Below, piece by piece: positions 18,203-26,173 of a stretch of 33,305 bases of DNA (the first letter of the stretch is position 1; each line of letters begins with the position of its first letter). The position numbers and the translations under genes are program-made. Below the pieces are notes generated by a model. That model ran no database searches and was not told the DNA's origin. It saw only the letters and a program-made list of their open reading frames with translations. Source of the stretch: Cryomorphaceae bacterium (GTDB taxonomy: Bacteria > Bacteroidota > Bacteroidia > Flavobacteriales > Flavobacteriaceae); the NCBI GenBank assembly GCA_003331265.1, contig QOPV01000014.1:1-33305 (forward strand), read 5' to 3'.

Positions 18203-19291
18203 TTATTTATTCATAAATTCAGAAATTAATCTATGAAAATGATGAACACCTTGTTCTCTTTTTGGAGAAAATCTTCCTGCTTTGTAAAATGATGATCTTA
18301 GGCCATTGTGAACATTTTCTACAACAAACTCATCTTCTTCCTCAACTTTTTGAAGTTGGTTACCAGCTCCCCTATTTAATTTAGATTCATCATAAACATA
18401 GGATCTAAAAGAGACCCTTGTCAGACTATCATTAACAGGTTTAACTATGTTAATAGATAAACCCCACGGATAAAAATTAAACATCATATTTGGGAAAACC
18501 CAGTAGTAATATGCAGCTACATTTTTTCCGAAGTCAATATGATTTCTTGGTAAATCAAAAACATCTTTATTGTCCTCGCTATAACCAATTTGAAGGTTAC
18601 AATAATCATATGTTTCCGTTTTATAAACATTATAATCTAAAACCTCATTTAAACCTTTATGAACAAAAGGAATATGAAAACCCTCTAAGTAATTATCACA
18701 ATATAAAGCCCAGTGAGCATTAATAGTAAAGTTTTTGGATAACGAATGATCTGGATTAAATTTATCAATTGGTAGAAAATCAATTCGTTCGTTCATTTTA
18801 TCAATAACTTTTTGAAAATTAAATATTGGATTTAGTCCTGCAAATAATAATTTTCCCCATTTAATCATTGGAAACTTGTGTAAGTTATCGCATAACCTTG
18901 GAAAGTCTTGAGCATCACTAAATTCAGGCATAAATTCAAACTCACCAATATTATTAAATCGTCTTCCATGATACATACAAGTTATTTTTTTTGATTTTCC
19001 AGGCTCAAAAACTAGTATATTTCCTCTGTGTGTACAAATATTAGTCAAACAATGTATTTCTTCATTTTCGTCTTTTGTTAAAATAATAGGTTCATTTAAA
19101 TAATCTTTTAAAATGGTCAAAGGGTGTACCGAGTTTTTATATTTTAATAAATCAGAATCACCTACCCATTGCCAAGATTTAAGAAAAATCTTTGATTTTA
19201 CTTCATTAAAAATATCAGAATCTTTATAGAAAGAAGAGGGTAATGTTTCTGCCTTAGTAATATCAGGATCGATTATATATTTACCTTTCAT
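18203..19291 (-). CDS. Rieske non-haem iron oxygenase, alpha-subunit type
   Basis: This 362-residue ring-hydroxylating/choline-monooxygenase-type enzyme has an N-terminal Rieske domain with the 2Fe-2S ligands CTH (86-88) and CMYH (105-108), spaced by 16 residues. The mononuclear iron site lies in WALYCDNYLEGFHIPFVHKG at about 193-212, with the family's bridging Asp and two His. The C-terminal SRPBCC fold ends at HRLISEF. The DNYLEGFHIPFVH form resembles choline or carnitine-type oxygenases more than dioxygenases for aromatics, but the substrate is not certain. No reductase or ferredoxin gene is adjacent, so electrons must come from elsewhere. It is divergent from an amino-acid permease across 41 bp. 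Confidence 0.9.
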   Translation of the reverse strand: MKGKYIIDPDITKAETLPSSFYKDSDIFNEVKSKIFLKSWQWVGDSDLLKYKNSVHPLTILKDYLNEPIILTKDENEEIHCLTNICTHRGNILVFEPGKSKKITCMYHGRRFNNIGEFEFMPEFSDAQDFPRLCDNLHKFPMIKWGKLLFAGLNPIFNFQKVIDKMNERIDFLPIDKFNPDHSLSKNFTINAHWALYCDNYLEGFHIPFVHKGLNEVLDYNVYKTETYDYCNLQIGYSEDNKDVFDLPRNHIDFGKNVAAYYYWVFPNMMFNFYPWGLSINIVKPVNDSLTRVSFRSYVYDESKLNRGAGNQLQKVEEEDEFVVENVHNGLRSSFYKAGRFSPKREQGVHHFHRLISEFMNK

Positions 19292-19332: not shown

Positions 19333-20643
19333 TTGAAGAAGCAAAATCAAAAAATTGGATTATTAGCTGCTATTTCATTAATAGTTGGAAATATGATTGG
19401 TGCTGGAATTTTTGTTCTACCTGCTAGCCTTGCTAAATTTGGAGGTATTAGCATACTAGGATGGATATTTACAGCTATTGGAGCTTTAATTCTAGCTAAA
19501 ATTTTTAGCAATTTCAGTAAATTAATTTCAAGTAAGAGTGGAGGACCATACTTATACTCAAAAGTTGTTTTTGGAGATTTTATCGGATTTTTAGTTGCTT
19601 GGGGGTATTGGATTTCTTGCTGGATTAACAATGCTGCTATAGCAGTAGCAATTGTTAGTGCATTAAGTTTTTTTTTCCCTGTCTTAATAAACAGTCCACT
19701 ATATGCGACTTTGACAGGATTATCTTTTATATGGTTCTTTACTTGGACATCATCTAATGGAGTTAAGTTTTCAGGGAATATTCAAATAATAACTACTGTA
19801 GCCAAGTTACTTCCACTTTTATTTATAATAATTTCAGGAATATTTATTTTTGATTATAATCTCTTTCCTGAATTTAACAATACAGAACAAAGTGATTTTG
19901 AAATATTTCCAATTGTTTGCATAATGACACTATATGCCTTTCTAGGAATTGAATCAGCTACAATTCCAGCTAGCAGTATCAAAAACCCTAACATCACAAT
20001 TCCAAGAGCTACCATGATTGGTACAGTTATTTCAACTTTGATATATATTTTTGGAACTATTATATTATTTGGAATATTGCCTATAGAAATATTAATAGAC
20101 TCCCCTGCTCCTTTCGCTGAAGCTGGTAATATATTGGCAGGAAAATATGCAGGATATTTTATTTCTGCAGGTGCTGCAATCTCTGCAATAGGAGCATTAA
20201 ATGGATGGATATTAATAACCAGTTATATGCCCATATCTATGGCAAATGATAATTTATTTCCAAAAGTATTTAAAAATACCAATTCTAAAGGTTCACCAAT
20301 TGTAAGTTTAGTCTTTGGAAGTATTTTAACTTCATTTGTTATGACTATGAATTTTTCTGAGGGACTAGTCTCACGATTTGAATTTTTAATTCTATTAACT
20401 ACTTTATCCACATTAGTGCCCTACTTATTTGTAAGTGCAGCTTATATAATTTTTCATTTTGAAAAAAAATTATTTAAACGTGAAATTATTAAAACATATG
20501 CCTTAGGAATTTTAGGACTTAGCTATTCAATATGGGCAATATTCGGATCTGGAAGTGAAACTGTTTTCTATGGGTCTATTTTATTGTTAATAGGTGTACC
20601 CTTTTATTATGTTATGAAAATGAAAAACCCTTCTAAAAAATAA
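19333..20643 (+). CDS. APC-family amino-acid permease/antiporter
   Basis: This 436-residue protein has about 12 transmembrane helices. Helix 1 carries the APC signature (SLIVGNMIGAGIFVLPASLA, about 15-34). The start is TTG (19333-19335); the first internal ATG (residue 21) would destroy helix 1. The nearest relatives by pattern are the AdiC/YjeH-like basic-amino-acid or amino-acid exporters, but the substrate cannot be assigned. It shares a 41-bp divergent region with the Rieske gene, so joint regulation is likely. The last codons form one arm of the terminator. Confidence 0.9.
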   Translation: MKKQNQKIGLLAAISLIVGNMIGAGIFVLPASLAKFGGISILGWIFTAIGALILAKIFSNFSKLISSKSGGPYLYSKVVFGDFIGFLVAWGYWISCWINNAAIAVAIVSALSFFFPVLINSPLYATLTGLSFIWFFTWTSSNGVKFSGNIQIITTVAKLLPLLFIIISGIFIFDYNLFPEFNNTEQSDFEIFPIVCIMTLYAFLGIESATIPASSIKNPNITIPRATMIGTVISTLIYIFGTIILFGILPIEILIDSPAPFAEAGNILAGKYAGYFISAGAAISAIGALNGWILITSYMPISMANDNLFPKVFKNTNSKGSPIVSLVFGSILTSFVMTMNFSEGLVSRFEFLILLTTLSTLVPYLFVSAAYIIFHFEKKLFKREIIKTYALGILGLSYSIWAIFGSGSETVFYGSILLLIGVPFYYVMKMKNPSKK

Positions 20644-20656
20644 AAGGGTTTTTTTA
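20623..20656. terminator. Bidirectional terminator between convergent genes
   Basis: AAAAACCCTT (20623-20632), inside the permease stop region, pairs with AAGGGTTTTT (20644-20653). T-runs follow on both strands. It serves both the permease (plus) and the Met-rich lipoprotein (minus, ending at 20678). Confidence 0.8.
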
Positions 20657-20677: not shown

Positions 20678-21307
20678 CTATTTTCCTTGATAATCATAAT
20701 AACCCTCTACAGGTATCATTAAATGATCGTACCCAGTTCCTTGAAACATTACATATGGAGCGCCGCTCATAAAATCAGTGGTTTGACCAGCGAGTGTTGA
20801 AGGGTCTTTTGGCATTAACATTAAATGTGGTCCAGATTCAATCCATTGACCTTCAGCTGCATCTTCCTTGTTCATAACCATCTGTTTTGAATTATCTTCT
20901 CCCATATCACCATGTAACATCCAAGCCCATCCGTCAGAATCCATTTCAGGCTTAGTTTGACTCATATAGGCAGTAACCCATTTAAAAGATTGAGCATCAC
21001 CAACCATAGCCATGGCCTCATGAGCATCCTTCCAACCATTTTCAGGATCTGCAGGTCCTCTTGGATTTGCTGGCATAGCTGTCCAACCGTTAGTTCCTTC
21101 TCTCAACATTGTTCCATCCGCATCCATTACCGTACAATTAGCAGCGATAAAAGAGGGAGCAGCAGTGCTGTATGCCCAAATTTTCCATTCAGTTGATGTA
21201 TGTGGGCCTTCTGGTTCACCATTTGTGTTTACTGGCTCTGGAGAGGGAGCAGTTGTATTACAACCTATGAGTAAGGCCGATACAAATAATAAAAGTATTT
21301 TTTTCAT
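20678..21307 (-). CDS. Met/Trp-rich lipoprotein of unknown function
   Basis: This 209-residue protein has a lipoprotein signal (lipobox ALLIGC, Cys16). I do not recognise the family. Composition is unusual, with about 17 Met and many Trp, Gly, Asp and Pro, in a window otherwise dominated by Lys, Ile, Asn and Phe. Met/His clusters include HEAMAMVGD (about 95-103), WAWMLHGDMGED (about 127-138), HLMLMPKD (about 160-167) and DHLMIPVEGYYDY near the end. These could bind Cu(I), but that is inference from composition and from lying downstream of the metal-domain genes (28 nt after the second HMA gene). The coding sequence is richer in G and C than its neighbours, so recent acquisition is possible. 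Confidence 0.85.
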   Translation of the reverse strand: MKKILLLFVSALLIGCNTTAPSPEPVNTNGEPEGPHTSTEWKIWAYSTAAPSFIAANCTVMDADGTMLREGTNGWTAMPANPRGPADPENGWKDAHEAMAMVGDAQSFKWVTAYMSQTKPEMDSDGWAWMLHGDMGEDNSKQMVMNKEDAAEGQWIESGPHLMLMPKDPSTLAGQTTDFMSGAPYVMFQGTGYDHLMIPVEGYYDYQGK

Positions 21308-21335
21308 ATTTTTTTTATTTAAAGTTAATAAAAAT

Positions 21336-21752
21336 TTAATTTGACTTTATATTCATCTTAGGATCATATTTACAACACAAGGGTAAGTTATCATATGAAT
21401 CCATATTATTCTCAACTAACTCAGTACCATAACCAGAATTAGCTATGGCTTGATGGATACTCATTAGATCTACAATTTGAGGATCATATATCAATTTAAT
21501 TTGTTTCGTTTGCTTGTCCCAATCAGCATTTGTAACTCCAGACAATGATAAGGCCGCGGTTTCAATTGTTTTTTTACACATACCACAGTTTCCCTTAACC
21601 CCAAATGAGGTTTCATTACCCATCAGTTCGACTATTTTTTCAGCATTTTCAGATGTAATTTTAGAATCATTAGTAGTAAATAAATCTGGTAAAAACCATC
21701 CAATTAACAAACCAAAAACTAAAAAAACTATAATCGTGATATTTTTTTTCAT
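21336..21752 (-). CDS. Membrane-anchored HMA-domain protein with C-terminal CC motif
   Basis: This 138-residue protein has an N-terminal anchor or signal (about 5-24). A heavy-metal-associated domain (about 46-115) has a GNCGMCKKTIE metal loop, i.e. CxxC in a Cys-Gly-Met-Cys setting. The tail YDNLPLCCKYD adds an adjacent Cys pair. HMA domains bind Cu(I) or similar soft metals. It is 6 nt downstream of a second HMA gene with the same tail pattern and downstream of a TonB receptor. A periplasmic or surface metallochaperone role is inferred. Confidence 0.9.
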   Translation of the reverse strand: MKKNITIIVFLVFGLLIGWFLPDLFTTNDSKITSENAEKIVELMGNETSFGVKGNCGMCKKTIETAALSLSGVTNADWDKQTKQIKLIYDPQIVDLMSIHQAIANSGYGTELVENNMDSYDNLPLCCKYDPKMNIKSN

Positions 21753-21758
21753 AAGTAT

Positions 21759-22106
21759 TTAATGAGGTGTATTTGTTTTATAGAAGCAACACTCGGGTAA
21801 ACTATTATATATTTCATCTTTTGCTTTAAATTTATCAGTATCGTGTCCTAAAGCTGCTATATTTTTTTTTATGCTGTCAAGTTTAATTTTTCTAGAATTA
21901 TAAATAACAGAAAGATTGTTAGAATTAATATCCCAATTTGCATATTTTACCCCTTTAATTTTGAGTGTACCTTTTTCAATTCTAGTTTTACACATTTCAC
22001 AAACACCGCTTACTACAAATGAGGAGTTGATAACTTTTGGATCTTCTTTTTGAAAAGCAAAAGACAGGGAGGTTGTAAAAAAAAGCAAAATAAATAAATA
22101 TCTCAT
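21759..22106 (-). CDS. Secreted HMA-domain protein with C-terminal CC motif
   Basis: This 115-residue protein has a Sec signal (1-18). The HMA domain (about 28-95) has metal loop SGVCEMCKTRIEKG and typical continuation GVKYANWDINSNNLSVIY. The C-terminal YNSLPECCFYK repeats the tail of the next gene (YDNLPLCCKYD). It lies 10 nt after the TonB receptor stop and 6 nt before the sister HMA gene, so the pair probably arose by duplication within the operon and acts with the receptor. Confidence 0.9.
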   Translation of the reverse strand: MRYLFILLFFTTSLSFAFQKEDPKVINSSFVVSGVCEMCKTRIEKGTLKIKGVKYANWDINSNNLSVIYNSRKIKLDSIKKNIAALGHDTDKFKAKDEIYNSLPECCFYKTNTPH

Positions 22107-22116
22107 ATCAACAAAT

Positions 22117-24345
22117 TTACAATTTTAATCTGATTCCCAAATATAGCATAGGAGCAATAATTGGGGCGTATACAAGTGTACTATCAAAGTTCATTCCAAA
22201 GGGATTTTCAGAACTTAGTATTGGGTTTTCTTGAGTATAACTTCCAATATTTTCTCCACCAAAATAAATTTCGAAATTTTCTGAAAACACTCTAGTCAAC
22301 TGAGAGTTTAATAAAGTGTATGAGGGAGACCATCCATTAAATAAAGACTGATCTGAATGAATTGGTAACCTTTGTTTACCGATACGATTATAGGTAAAAT
22401 CGAATTTCCATTGACTACCATTATTTTTTGGAGTTGAAAAGAAATCTATATTTATAAAAAACCTATTCTTAGGAGTTAAAGGATTCTGTTTAAAACCCGA
22501 ATTATACTGTTTTTTAACATTATAATTTTTAAATGCAGATTTGAAATTGATATTATTTGAAATTGAATAATCTAATTCGATTTGAAAACTTTTAGCATAA
22601 CTTTTTCCTTCTAAATTATAAAAACTTAACTGTCCCTGTTTTTCCCAATCTACTACAATTTGATTTTCGAAATCAGTAACGTAATAATCAATTGTGATGT
22701 CTCCATCTTGATTATTTAAATTAAAACCTTGTCTAAAGCTTAACCCATAATTCAAAGCTTTTTCGGAGTTTAAGCCATAAAAATTACCATTTTCATTTTT
22801 AATCTTTATCTCACGTCCGGTTGAAAAAATCTCTTGGTTCTCTGAAAAAATATTTGAAGATTTTCTTCCGGATCCAATAGAAAATCTTAAAACTGATTTT
22901 TCAAAGGGTTGATATCTTACATGCATTCTTGGGGTTATAAAAGAACCTAAATTATTATGTATGTCATACCTTAATCCAGCAACTAAACTTACATCATCCA
23001 GGTTATCATAACTATATTCAAAAAAACCCCCAATCGATTTATCTATTCTATTATAATTTGTTTTAGTTTGATCTACAATTTCTTCAAAATCATCATAATA
23101 AAAATTTAGACCAGTCTTAATCTTATTCATTGTATTTCCAATTATTGAATTGTAAAGAAAACTAGAATAAAAACTGTTTTGTTTGATGTTATAATCTCTC
23201 AATCCAAAAAAAGATTTTTGATTATGAGCTGAATAAGCCATTTGAAAGCCAGTAGATCGATATGGAATTCGTGGATTAACATACCCTAATTTAAAATTAG
23301 AATCGAATCTGTCTGTTTTTATTTCACTTACCCATGCCATTCTTTTTAGTTTTAAATTTGCTACATCTTCTCCAGCTTTTTTATCATTTTTCATATATCT
23401 AAAACCTAAAAAACTTACAATACCTTTTTCTAAGTCTGTATATTGATATCTGTTAAAAAAATTAAAACCTTTAAAGGTTGGGTGATCTAAAAAACCATCG
23501 GAATTATCATCATGAATACTTGTATTATTATCAGCGTGAACAAAAAATATTGTGTTGAGTTTAGGGTTTAATTTTTTATTTAGATGAAAATTAAATTCAT
23601 TTCTTCCCATACTGGATCTGAAAACATTAATAAATAATGGGGCTTCATTAACTGGTTTTTTTAATTCTATATTAATTTGACCTGAAATACTTTCAAATCC
23701 ATTAACAACACTTCCAGTTCCTTTAGTAATCTGCATACTTTCTACCCATGGACCAGGGATGAATGACAATCCATAAACTTGAGAAGCACCACGAACCATT
23801 GGAATATTTTCTTCTGTTATTAATAAATATGGACTTTCTAACCCAAGCATTCTAACTTGCTTAACACCTGTAATTGCATTTGAATAACTTACATCAATTG
23901 ATGGATTTGTTTCAAAACTTTCTGAAACATTACAACAAGCAGCTTTTAATAGTTCATCACTAGAAACATTTACTATATTTTGTGTTTTAAAATATGATTT
24001 TTGGATGGTGTTTTTTCTTTTAGAAACAATGACTTCGTTCAACTCATTAGATTCTTCGATCAATTTAAAATCGTATGTTTTAACATCATTGATAATTAGA
24101 GAATATTCTTTAAAGCCTAACATTTTAACAACTAGTATGTTGGAATTTTCAGAGAATGGAATAGAATAATTTCCGTTTTTATCAGAAATCACACCTATTG
24201 AAGAATCTTTCCAATAAACACTTGCGCCCTCAAGAAAAACAATTTTATTTTCCTTATTTAAAAATGAAATCTTTCCTGATAATAATTCTTGCGAATATGA
24301 ATTAAGAGATAAAAAAATTATAAAAAAAAATAATTTAATTTTCAT
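22117..24345 (-). CDS. TonB-dependent outer-membrane receptor, probably metal-linked
   Basis: This 742-residue protein has a signal peptide (1-18) and a CarboxypepD-reg-like domain (about 20-95, GNYSIPFSENSNILVVKMLG). A plug domain at about 120-240 carries LKAACCNVSESFETNP with an adjacent Cys pair, GVKQVRMLGL and VVNGFESISGQINIE. A 22-strand barrel follows, ending in an aromatic/leucine terminus (GIRLKL). It should import a ligand with TonB energy. Being directly followed by two HMA proteins suggests a copper or similar metal chelate. The first 11 bases of the gene overlap the end of the DUF3089 gene, showing they are co-transcribed. Confidence 0.94.
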   Translation of the reverse strand: MKIKLFFFIIFLSLNSYSQELLSGKISFLNKENKIVFLEGASVYWKDSSIGVISDKNGNYSIPFSENSNILVVKMLGFKEYSLIINDVKTYDFKLIEESNELNEVIVSKRKNTIQKSYFKTQNIVNVSSDELLKAACCNVSESFETNPSIDVSYSNAITGVKQVRMLGLESPYLLITEENIPMVRGASQVYGLSFIPGPWVESMQITKGTGSVVNGFESISGQINIELKKPVNEAPLFINVFRSSMGRNEFNFHLNKKLNPKLNTIFFVHADNNTSIHDDNSDGFLDHPTFKGFNFFNRYQYTDLEKGIVSFLGFRYMKNDKKAGEDVANLKLKRMAWVSEIKTDRFDSNFKLGYVNPRIPYRSTGFQMAYSAHNQKSFFGLRDYNIKQNSFYSSFLYNSIIGNTMNKIKTGLNFYYDDFEEIVDQTKTNYNRIDKSIGGFFEYSYDNLDDVSLVAGLRYDIHNNLGSFITPRMHVRYQPFEKSVLRFSIGSGRKSSNIFSENQEIFSTGREIKIKNENGNFYGLNSEKALNYGLSFRQGFNLNNQDGDITIDYYVTDFENQIVVDWEKQGQLSFYNLEGKSYAKSFQIELDYSISNNINFKSAFKNYNVKKQYNSGFKQNPLTPKNRFFINIDFFSTPKNNGSQWKFDFTYNRIGKQRLPIHSDQSLFNGWSPSYTLLNSQLTRVFSENFEIYFGGENIGSYTQENPILSSENPFGMNFDSTLVYAPIIAPMLYLGIRLKL

Positions 24346-25396
24346 TCAATAAATAATTTTTAGCTCTATTTATTGAGTTTATTCTAATATCCTCCCAAAA
24401 CAAGTTTATATCTGCTTTGTGATAATCTTTGACTGACGAAACCAGTAATTTTTTTAAAATACCCATTTTTGGTAGTTTAACATAAACCTTACTATCAATA
24501 TCGTGAATTTTTACTGTATTTGGATATATTTTATTGTTCAAATAAAGAAACCCTTTATGATCCTCGTAATTTGAATTTTTGCTTGAATTCCATGTTATAG
24601 GATTGGAACACAATGCTCCCTCAATCCATTCGGGACTTACAGTATACACAGCCTTTTTAGCTTTTCTTTCAGACATTAGTCTGTATGTGTTCCAAGTAAC
24701 AAAACCACCTGTCTCATTTTCATTTTTCATTAATTTTATACTTCTAAAATCCTTATCAGTAATCTTTGTTCCAACTAAATATGCTGCGATTAATTTTTTT
24801 TCCAATGGCTTGTTGTCAAAAAAATCTTGTAAAATTCTTTTTGCGTGTCCTGCACCTTGACTATGACCTGCAATAATTATTGGTCTATTGTTATTATATT
24901 TTTTTAAGAATATCCTAAAAGCTTGTTTGATATCTTCATAAGCCATTTCATAGGCTTGTTCTCCTCCGTTTTTCCAAAAAGATTCTCTAAATACTCTTAA
25001 GTGGGCTTGTCTGTAAAAAGGAACATATAAATTACCTGTCGAGTACCAAGCAGAAGATTGATATTTAACTGTTGATTCTAAAATGTAATTTCGAGTTTTT
25101 TCATCATAAATATCCGCATTCCATGAAGTGTCTTTTTTATTGGAAAGCATGGTTGGATAAATAAAAAAAATATCTACAGGTAACTTGGAGTTTTGATATT
25201 TAGTATCAAAGAAAATATCAGAATCATTTTCAGGATGCACTGCCCAAGATTTTAGAATTTCATAGTTTGGTGGATCTGATATTTTAAAATCTTCAAAAGA
25301 AGAACTATTATATTCTATTGGATTATTACTTTCAGATAACAATCCACAAGATGAAATCGAAAGGAAAAGCATAAAGTACAGGTTTTTTATATTCAT
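24335..25396 (-). CDS. DUF3089 alpha/beta-hydrolase lipoprotein
   Basis: This 353-residue protein has a lipobox SISSC (Cys17). The DUF3089 pattern is clear. PVDIFFIYPTML and WNADIYDEKTRNYILES lead to YVPFYRQAHLRVF, then AYEDIKQAFRIFLKKY and the nucleophile elbow AGHSQGAGH (Ser169). The family is thought to have lipase/esterase activity but is not biochemically settled. The gene is 25 nt downstream of another lipoprotein gene and overlaps the TonB receptor start by 11 nt. Its part in the metal operon is unclear; cleaving an ester-linked metallophore at the surface is one speculative option. Confidence 0.9.
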   Translation of the reverse strand: MNIKNLYFMLFLSISSCGLLSESNNPIEYNSSSFEDFKISDPPNYEILKSWAVHPENDSDIFFDTKYQNSKLPVDIFFIYPTMLSNKKDTSWNADIYDEKTRNYILESTVKYQSSAWYSTGNLYVPFYRQAHLRVFRESFWKNGGEQAYEMAYEDIKQAFRIFLKKYNNNRPIIIAGHSQGAGHAKRILQDFFDNKPLEKKLIAAYLVGTKITDKDFRSIKLMKNENETGGFVTWNTYRLMSERKAKKAVYTVSPEWIEGALCSNPITWNSSKNSNYEDHKGFLYLNNKIYPNTVKIHDIDSKVYVKLPKMGILKKLLVSSVKDYHKADINLFWEDIRINSINRAKNYLLNEN

Positions 25397-25421
25397 TTTT
25401 TTATAATAAAATCACTCTAAA

Positions 25422-26141
25422 TTATTCTAGAATTACAGTCCTTATAGATGGATTGAAACGAGTGTCTATTAAATCTCCCTTAGAATTTATTAATTCTAAC
25501 TTAATTGTGATTTCACCTTTTGGTAATCCTTCAATATAATACGGAGCCCATTCACTAATAATAAATTCTGTATCCTCAATAGTTGCCCTAACTTTATTTC
25601 CTTCTTCAGAAATCTCTGTATTAATTAAGTAAAAGTCTAAAAGTAATTTCTTAGTATCCTCTCCGATGTATTTTCCTTTAGGTCTGCTATAAAAAAGAAA
25701 TTCGTTTGACAAATCCATTTCGTTATTGCTACCAATTTCCGTGAACACATAAGCCTCTGTATTTTTAACAGACTCATGATAGGAACGCGATAAAAAAGCT
25801 AAAAGAATATCACCTTCCTCTATTTTTTTTGTAAAATTTTCGGAATAGTGAGCAGAATACGGGTCATTATTTACAATAAAATGAATATGTTGTCCTTTAT
25901 CTGAATTTGCTAAATTATAATTAAACTCATTTGAAGTTTGAATTCCAAGCTCATAATTATTTGTCTCAAAAGAAAAAGAATATCCATCTTCAATTTTATC
26001 AACCTCCATCAGTGAAAGTTTAGCATCTTCATAGTTTGGTGAACCATTAATTTTCTCAATTGTAATTTGATTGGAATTATTACATGAAAAAATTGTAATT
26101 AAAAAAAAGAAAAAAATTAAATTTTGTAATGTCTTTATCAT
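25422..26141 (-). CDS. Lipoprotein of the type annotated phosphopeptide-binding in flavobacteria
   Basis: This 239-residue protein has a lipobox (TIFSC, Cys20). The segments LANSDKGQHIHFIVNNDPYSAHY (about 77-99), LLAFLSRSYHESVKN (about 113-127), FLFYSRPKGKYIGED and KVRATIEDTEFIISEWAPYYIEGLPKG look like a conserved Bacteroidota family that databases often label phosphopeptide-binding. This is from memory of the pattern, and I see no FHA-type signature, so the label may be a historical misnomer. It has His-rich potential (GQHIHF, SAHY, YHES). It is probably the first gene of the minus-strand operon running to 20678, with a -7 box at 26166-26173. Confidence 0.82.
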   Translation of the reverse strand: MIKTLQNLIFFFFLITIFSCNNSNQITIEKINGSPNYEDAKLSLMEVDKIEDGYSFSFETNNYELGIQTSNEFNYNLANSDKGQHIHFIVNNDPYSAHYSENFTKKIEEGDILLAFLSRSYHESVKNTEAYVFTEIGSNNEMDLSNEFLFYSRPKGKYIGEDTKKLLLDFYLINTEISEEGNKVRATIEDTEFIISEWAPYYIEGLPKGEITIKLELINSKGDLIDTRFNPSIRTVILE

Positions 26142-26165: not shown

Positions 26166-26173
26166 CAAATTTA
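26166..26173 (-). promoter_or_regulatory. Bacteroidota -7 box upstream of the metal operon
   Basis: Read on the minus strand this is TAAATTTG, an exact TAnnTTTG match, placed 25 nt before the ATG of the first lipoprotein gene. A TTTG lies 14 nt upstream of it rather than the expected 19, so only the -7 element is supported. Confidence 0.45.

Follow-up and report, generated by a model that had tools for sequence, protein, structure and literature searches.

To our knowledge, the ways in which Gram-negative bacteria take up copper are poorly known. The copper receptors that we found in the open-licence literature are OprC, CrtA, TccA, PcuB and the methanobactin receptors, none of them from Bacteroidota. 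OprC of Pseudomonas aeruginosa is a TonB receptor in which a cysteine of the plug lies in the copper site together with barrel residues (PMC8610252). CrtA is linked to heme-copper oxidases (PMC12914433, PMC10422930), to which it supplies copper in Bordetella, and its conserved ligand residues are E337, Q356, H358, R395, W265 and Y130 (PMC12914433). According to a study in Caulobacter, the TonB receptor TccA is needed for the aa3 oxidase and is proposed to be a copper route to the periplasm; the same study describes PcuABCDE of Bradyrhizobium japonicum, where the receptor PcuB and periplasmic chaperones are induced by copper starvation, and where deletion of PcuB has no detectable phenotype (PMC12617631). 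In Bizionia argentinensis, periplasmic HMA proteins have been listed, copper uptake being attributed to a different, OprC-like receptor (PMC11213822).

Here, we analysed a window of 33,305 nucleotides from a Cryomorphaceae bacterium. The initial annotation had proposed that six tightly packed minus-strand genes form a metal acquisition operon joined by adjacent cysteines. The open reading frames confirm the packing, with intergenic gaps of 25, -11, 10, 6 and 28 bp from 5' to 3' on the minus strand:

25422-26141, minus strand: lipoprotein LP239, 239 aa, family unassigned, nothing above the Pfam cut-off
24335-25396, minus strand: DUF3089 lipoprotein, alpha/beta-hydrolase-like, 353 aa (PF11288, 177 bits)
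22117-24345, minus strand: TonB-dependent receptor, 742 aa (Pfam CarbopepD_reg_2, Plug and barrel)
23932-23937, minus strand: codons of C137 and C138, the Cys pair of the receptor plug, located relative to the ORF start (24345)
21759-22106, minus strand: HMA2, 115 aa, core partner gene of the receptor (PF00403, 29.5 bits versus a cut-off of 24.8)
21336-21752, minus strand: HMA1, 138 aa (PF00403, 32.2 bits)
20678-21307, minus strand: Met-rich lipoprotein, 209 aa, accessory, lipobox Cys16, nothing above the Pfam cut-off
20623-20653, minus strand: terminator-like hairpin just 3' of the last gene, 13-bp stem, T-rich, by sequence match only

TAnnTTTG promoter sites are not enriched (40 found versus 58 expected) and the one at 26166-26173 is thus no evidence of a promoter. 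Elsewhere in the window, at 18203-19291, a Rieske-type ring-hydroxylating oxygenase adjoins an amino-acid permease; in NCBIfam it comes nearest to glycine betaine monooxygenase, with a score far under the cut-off.

This locus resembles PcuABCDE in that a TonB receptor is encoded together with periplasmic carriers. Yet, in the available sections of that report PcuC is PccA-like rather than an HMA protein, no matching of Cys pairs is described, and the organism belongs to another phylum (PMC12617631). The same sections give TccA a predicted site at His116/His321, found by a screen, and describe no HMA partner with a tail Cys pair (hereafter HMA-CC) (PMC12617631). CrtA is likewise a copper TonB receptor, in Bordetella pertussis and P. 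aeruginosa, but it is mostly beta- and gamma-proteobacterial, its selectivity is based on His, and the Pseudomonas protein has no Cys (PMC12914433, PMC10422930). OprC has in common with the window receptor a plug Cys, there a copper ligand, but it combines a CxxxM plug motif with an HxM barrel site (PMC8610252), whereas the window receptor has C137-C138 only. We considered membership of the OprC family and set it aside, because the plug motif is not present: C137 and C138 are followed by NVSESF, with no Met. By analogy with PcuABCDE and TccA, the receptor and its HMA-CC partner may function as do those copper TonB receptors that are known to have chaperones in the periplasm. We did not find this pair described in the open-licence literature, which is weak evidence of absence; it is a real and conserved family and, as far as we could find, an undescribed one.

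Cys pairs in the receptor and in the HMA proteins

The receptor is composed of a signal peptide, a CarboxypepD_reg domain (residues 23-107), a plug and a beta-barrel (residues 281-700). Both PF07715 and PF00593 score above their cut-offs, i.e. the protein has the plug and the 22-strand barrel domains that define a TonB-dependent transporter, and its structural model matches BtuB, FepA and OprC in Foldseek, the plug part of the model being of low confidence. The plug bears ELLKAACCNVSESFETNP, which holds C137 and C138, the only Cys of the protein. A TonB-box-like LNEVIVS lies at about 102-108, with an EVIVS-like segment at 104-108 in which E104 and V105 are conserved. The barrel is modelled acceptably and the plug with a pLDDT of about 30-70, mostly below 50, too poor to place the Cys pair. 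Its position was therefore taken from an alignment to XusA, which puts it about 30 residues past the putative TonB box and just ahead of the 'nLsdaL..vPG' helix. We take this region to be the part of the plug nearest to the periplasm. Since the OprC Cys comes later and acts with barrel residues, we propose that the pair might be an exit-side transit ligand.

HMA1 and HMA2 have exactly four Cys each, two in the CxxC loop and two in the tail. HMA2 has an N-terminal signal (SLSFA-FQ), a CopZ-like HMA domain with GVCEMC and the tail YNSLPECCFY; from about residue 31 to residue 110, tail included, its model exceeds a pLDDT of 90, and the fold is that of CopZ. HMA1 starts with a hydrophobic segment, which from its sequence looks like an uncleaved membrane anchor, followed by an HMA domain with GNCGMC and the tail YDNLPLCCKY. 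Both exceed the PF00403 cut-off, as expected of the beta-alpha-beta-beta-alpha-beta HMA fold with a CxxC loop, which they share with the CopZ and MerP metallochaperones. They differ from these by the additional tail Y-x-x-[LV]-x-x-CC-x-Y and by scores under the NCBIfam equivalog cut-offs, for CopZ (39.3 and 34.8 bits versus 91) and, in HMA1, for MerP (25.1 versus 92.6). They are adjacent in the loci of the window genus, and no HMA domain besides theirs was found in the window genome. Because HMA1 and HMA2 are only 28% identical, the tail Cys pair is a trait of the family and not the result of recent copying.

The initial annotation had pointed to Cys pairs in the plug and in both HMA tails, and had named a lack of conservation in homologues as one refutation. 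On both counts it is upheld. Across the window ORFs that do not overlap and reach 100 aa or more (10,344 residues), there are three CC dipeptides, precisely these and in three consecutive genes, against about 0.6 expected by chance given a Cys frequency of 0.7%. Among 26 diverse receptors (26-69% identical to that of the window), A136, C137, C138, E142, S143 and F144 are invariant, and so are C36, C39, C106, C107 and Y109 among 43 HMA-CC sequences, HMA1 and HMA2 included. A chance co-occurrence of the pairs is ruled out by this conservation across Bacteroidota and by the non-CC receptor control that follows.

Linkage across Bacteroidota and partner genes

Two sets of loci were used, one of 80 regions including the window genus, the rest of the phylum and non-CC receptor controls, and one of the closest 80 loci retrieved by a scan, essentially all from Flavobacteriaceae. 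An HMA-CC gene was counted as linked when on the same strand and at most two genes from the receptor, or when fused to it. Outside the window genus, 102 of the 116 receptors with a Cys pair in the plug have such a partner, versus 1 of the 32 non-CC TonB receptors (Fisher p ~6e-20, only a guide since the loci are not independent). The sole linked non-CC receptor (L228) is a different receptor lying close to a CC receptor. The pair is also present in annotated records of Parabacteroides and Bernardetia. Furthermore, the receptors of five loci (L117, L123, L124, L126 and L129) carry one or two HMA-CC domains as an N-terminal fusion and retain both CC motifs, with Pfam domain matches supporting the fusions in L117 and L123. 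About ten divergent CC receptors (L135, L136, L138-L145) have no adjacent HMA-CC gene; several of them have a small Cys-rich protein upstream. One of the loci, L266 (NZ_OY725762.1), is a plasmid according to its record, yet it carries ftsK, smpB and metH and may be a piece of chromosome.

Most relatives encode, just upstream of the receptor, a Cys-rich exported protein of the HYC_CC_PP family (NCBIfam NF047658), found in 70 of the closest 80 loci. The conserved unit is thus the receptor with one HMA-CC protein, usually accompanied by a HYC_CC_PP protein. The window locus has the receptor and HMA-CC core but, unlike the HYC_CC_PP-receptor-HMA-CC operon of Flavobacteriaceae, no HYC_CC_PP gene: none was found in the window genome (about 80% complete), and the single copy among the 22 genomes of the genus lies elsewhere than at this locus. 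The genus has a second HMA protein, HMA1, and usually also the Met-rich lipoprotein. The latter deserves its name, with 17 Met in 209 aa and with C58, H161xM163 and H195xM197 conserved in 13 copies of the genus. None of 148 genomes from elsewhere in the class has a match to it, a cupin-like lipoprotein takes its place in L101-L103, and it is a genus-level add-on. DUF3089 and LP239 occur in loci of the genus only, within a conserved gene order that includes an acyltransferase and a NUDIX gene, and were not found in CC loci outside it. We set them aside as functional parts because of this restriction and fixed order; they are probably passengers. Neither LP239 nor the Met-rich lipoprotein scores above cut-off in Pfam or NCBIfam or matches PHROGs. 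Hence, of the six-gene unit initially proposed, the receptor and HMA-CC core is linked throughout the phylum, and DUF3089, LP239 and the Met-rich lipoprotein accompany it at the level of the genus only.

The genes next to the receptor in relatives also bear on the metal. Five loci hold an 830-aa P1B ATPase between the HYC_CC_PP gene and the receptor. The one that was scanned scores best as Cu P1B-1 (TIGR01511, 592 bits versus a cut-off of 397) and passes the cut-off of the Cd model at a lower score; the CPC, YN and MSxSS motifs are present in all four that were read. HMBD lipoproteins are found among the neighbours, and in L050, L052 and L058 an HMA domain with the tail Cys pair forms the C-terminus of proteins of 530-540 aa; those of L050 and L058 were verified to be CusB-like adaptors that include an HMBD domain. 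In many relatives an HMA-MauE membrane protein lies between the HYC_CC_PP gene and the receptor; it has about 240 aa where it stands upstream of the receptor in L187, L199, L211, L214 and others, and is a candidate inner-membrane partner. Regulators of about 185 aa, with an HMA-like N-terminus (NMVCDRC) and an AraC helix-turn-helix, adjoin the receptor in six loci and are possible metal sensors:

HMA-AraC regulators: L090:2525-3079, L100:10301-10858, L102:10303-10863, L104:3156-3719, L108:4813-5379, L136:7423-7989

Besides copper, HMA domains are able to bind Hg, Zn and Cd. Given the Cu-type ATPase and the HMBD and HMA partner genes of relatives, copper is the simplest reading of the metal. 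The copper of the initial annotation is thereby retained as the best assignment, one that would follow from gene context.

A sister group of TonB receptors (L150-L156, L160-L165 and L169, e.g. L152:7977-10268) carries a plug CxxC in CxVCNTGDIHINGL, about 20 residues further along the plug than the CC. One of them (L152) adjoins a DtxR-type regulator and a ZIP transporter, another (L153) a ZnuA-like protein, and they are likely the Mn/Fe/Zn counterpart.

Proposed copper acquisition and alternative roles

We think that the unit serves copper uptake, its TonB receptor passing the metal on to HMA chaperones in the periplasm, and we give this reading a probability of about 0.6. The receptor would bring copper, as an ion or a chelate, over the outer membrane, and the Cys pair of the plug would serve as a transit ligand for Cu(I), exposed to the periplasm once TonB pulls the plug. 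Copper would then be taken by the HMA-CC chaperones. These are the soluble HMA2 and, as a further carrier in this genus, HMA1, which is apparently anchored in the membrane; with their CxxC and tail CC they would deliver copper in the direction of SCO and cytochrome c oxidase. We infer copper in this organism, the direction of import and the passage from Cys to Cys. A stricter version, in which a di-cysteine in the movable part of the plug passes Cu(I) directly to the tail di-cysteine of its cognate HMA protein, in one thiol relay characteristic of a Bacteroidota-wide class of receptors and fused in some lineages, is tentative, and we would bet slightly against it.

Dealing with copper stress is the rival role that deserves the most attention. 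The module might sequester or retrieve periplasmic copper to feed CopA or CusABC, with no nutritional purpose, as one could suspect from the CopA-type ATPase in the operon of some relatives, from the fusion of HMA-CC to CusB-like adaptors and from a Haliscomenobacter plasmid on which a CusA/CzcA system and the receptor are about 4 kb apart. Yet, efflux genes are not recurrent neighbours of the receptor when neighbours are clustered, and TonB receptors are importers by their known mechanism. Moreover, the module is retained in the window genus, in whose 22 genomes (G000-G021) P-type ATPases of every kind went undetected, versus 14 out of 14 control genomes having one. These 22 genomes are 51-93% complete, and a joint absence by chance is unlikely. 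At the same time 19 of them encode COX2 and all 22 encode SCO, and the COX2 of the window genome retains the stretch CAKICGSSHYNM, CuA-like by inspection. Copper users lacking such ATPases favour acquisition over detoxification; judging from gene content, the module more plausibly serves in this genus to obtain copper, and we consider a pure detoxification role unlikely. A part in both copper supply and resistance is possible, as some relatives pair the module with CopA.

The cargo could also differ from copper. The HMA proteins match MerP/MerTP models too, which would suit MerP-like carriers of zinc, mercury, cobalt or a thiol-bound complex such as a chalkophore-like ligand, and the genes beside the sister CxxC receptors (DtxR-type regulator, ZIP, ZnuA) indicate that specificity varies in the superfamily. 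But the ATPase of relatives scores best as Cu-type and has the Cu motifs, the nearest solved folds and chaperone models are those of CopZ, and no mercury gene was seen among the neighbourhoods read, which makes another soft metal improbable. Least probable is that the Cys pairs carry no metal at all and have a structural or redox role through disulfides, with HMA-CC as a redox partner or a helper of receptor assembly. Adjacent cysteines could form vicinal disulfides and the HMA-MauE partners include the redox-associated MauE domain, but each HMA protein keeps the GxCxxC metal loop besides the tail pair, and HMBD proteins, Cu-ATPases and HMA regulators are among the neighbours.

If the direct passage of Cu(I) from this receptor to its HMA-CC partner is confirmed, import and chaperoning would be a single continuous thiol relay. 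The association provides a simple sequence rule, by which a plug ACC beside or fused to HMA-CC identifies both the receptor and its partner, a combination widespread in Bacteroidota. The natural fusions, together with point mutations, make a direct hand-over from the outer membrane to a chaperone testable. Finally, as the sister receptors with a CxxC plug stand next to DtxR, ZIP and ZnuA genes, the cysteines of the plug may be a guide to the metal that a Bacteroidota TonB receptor handles.
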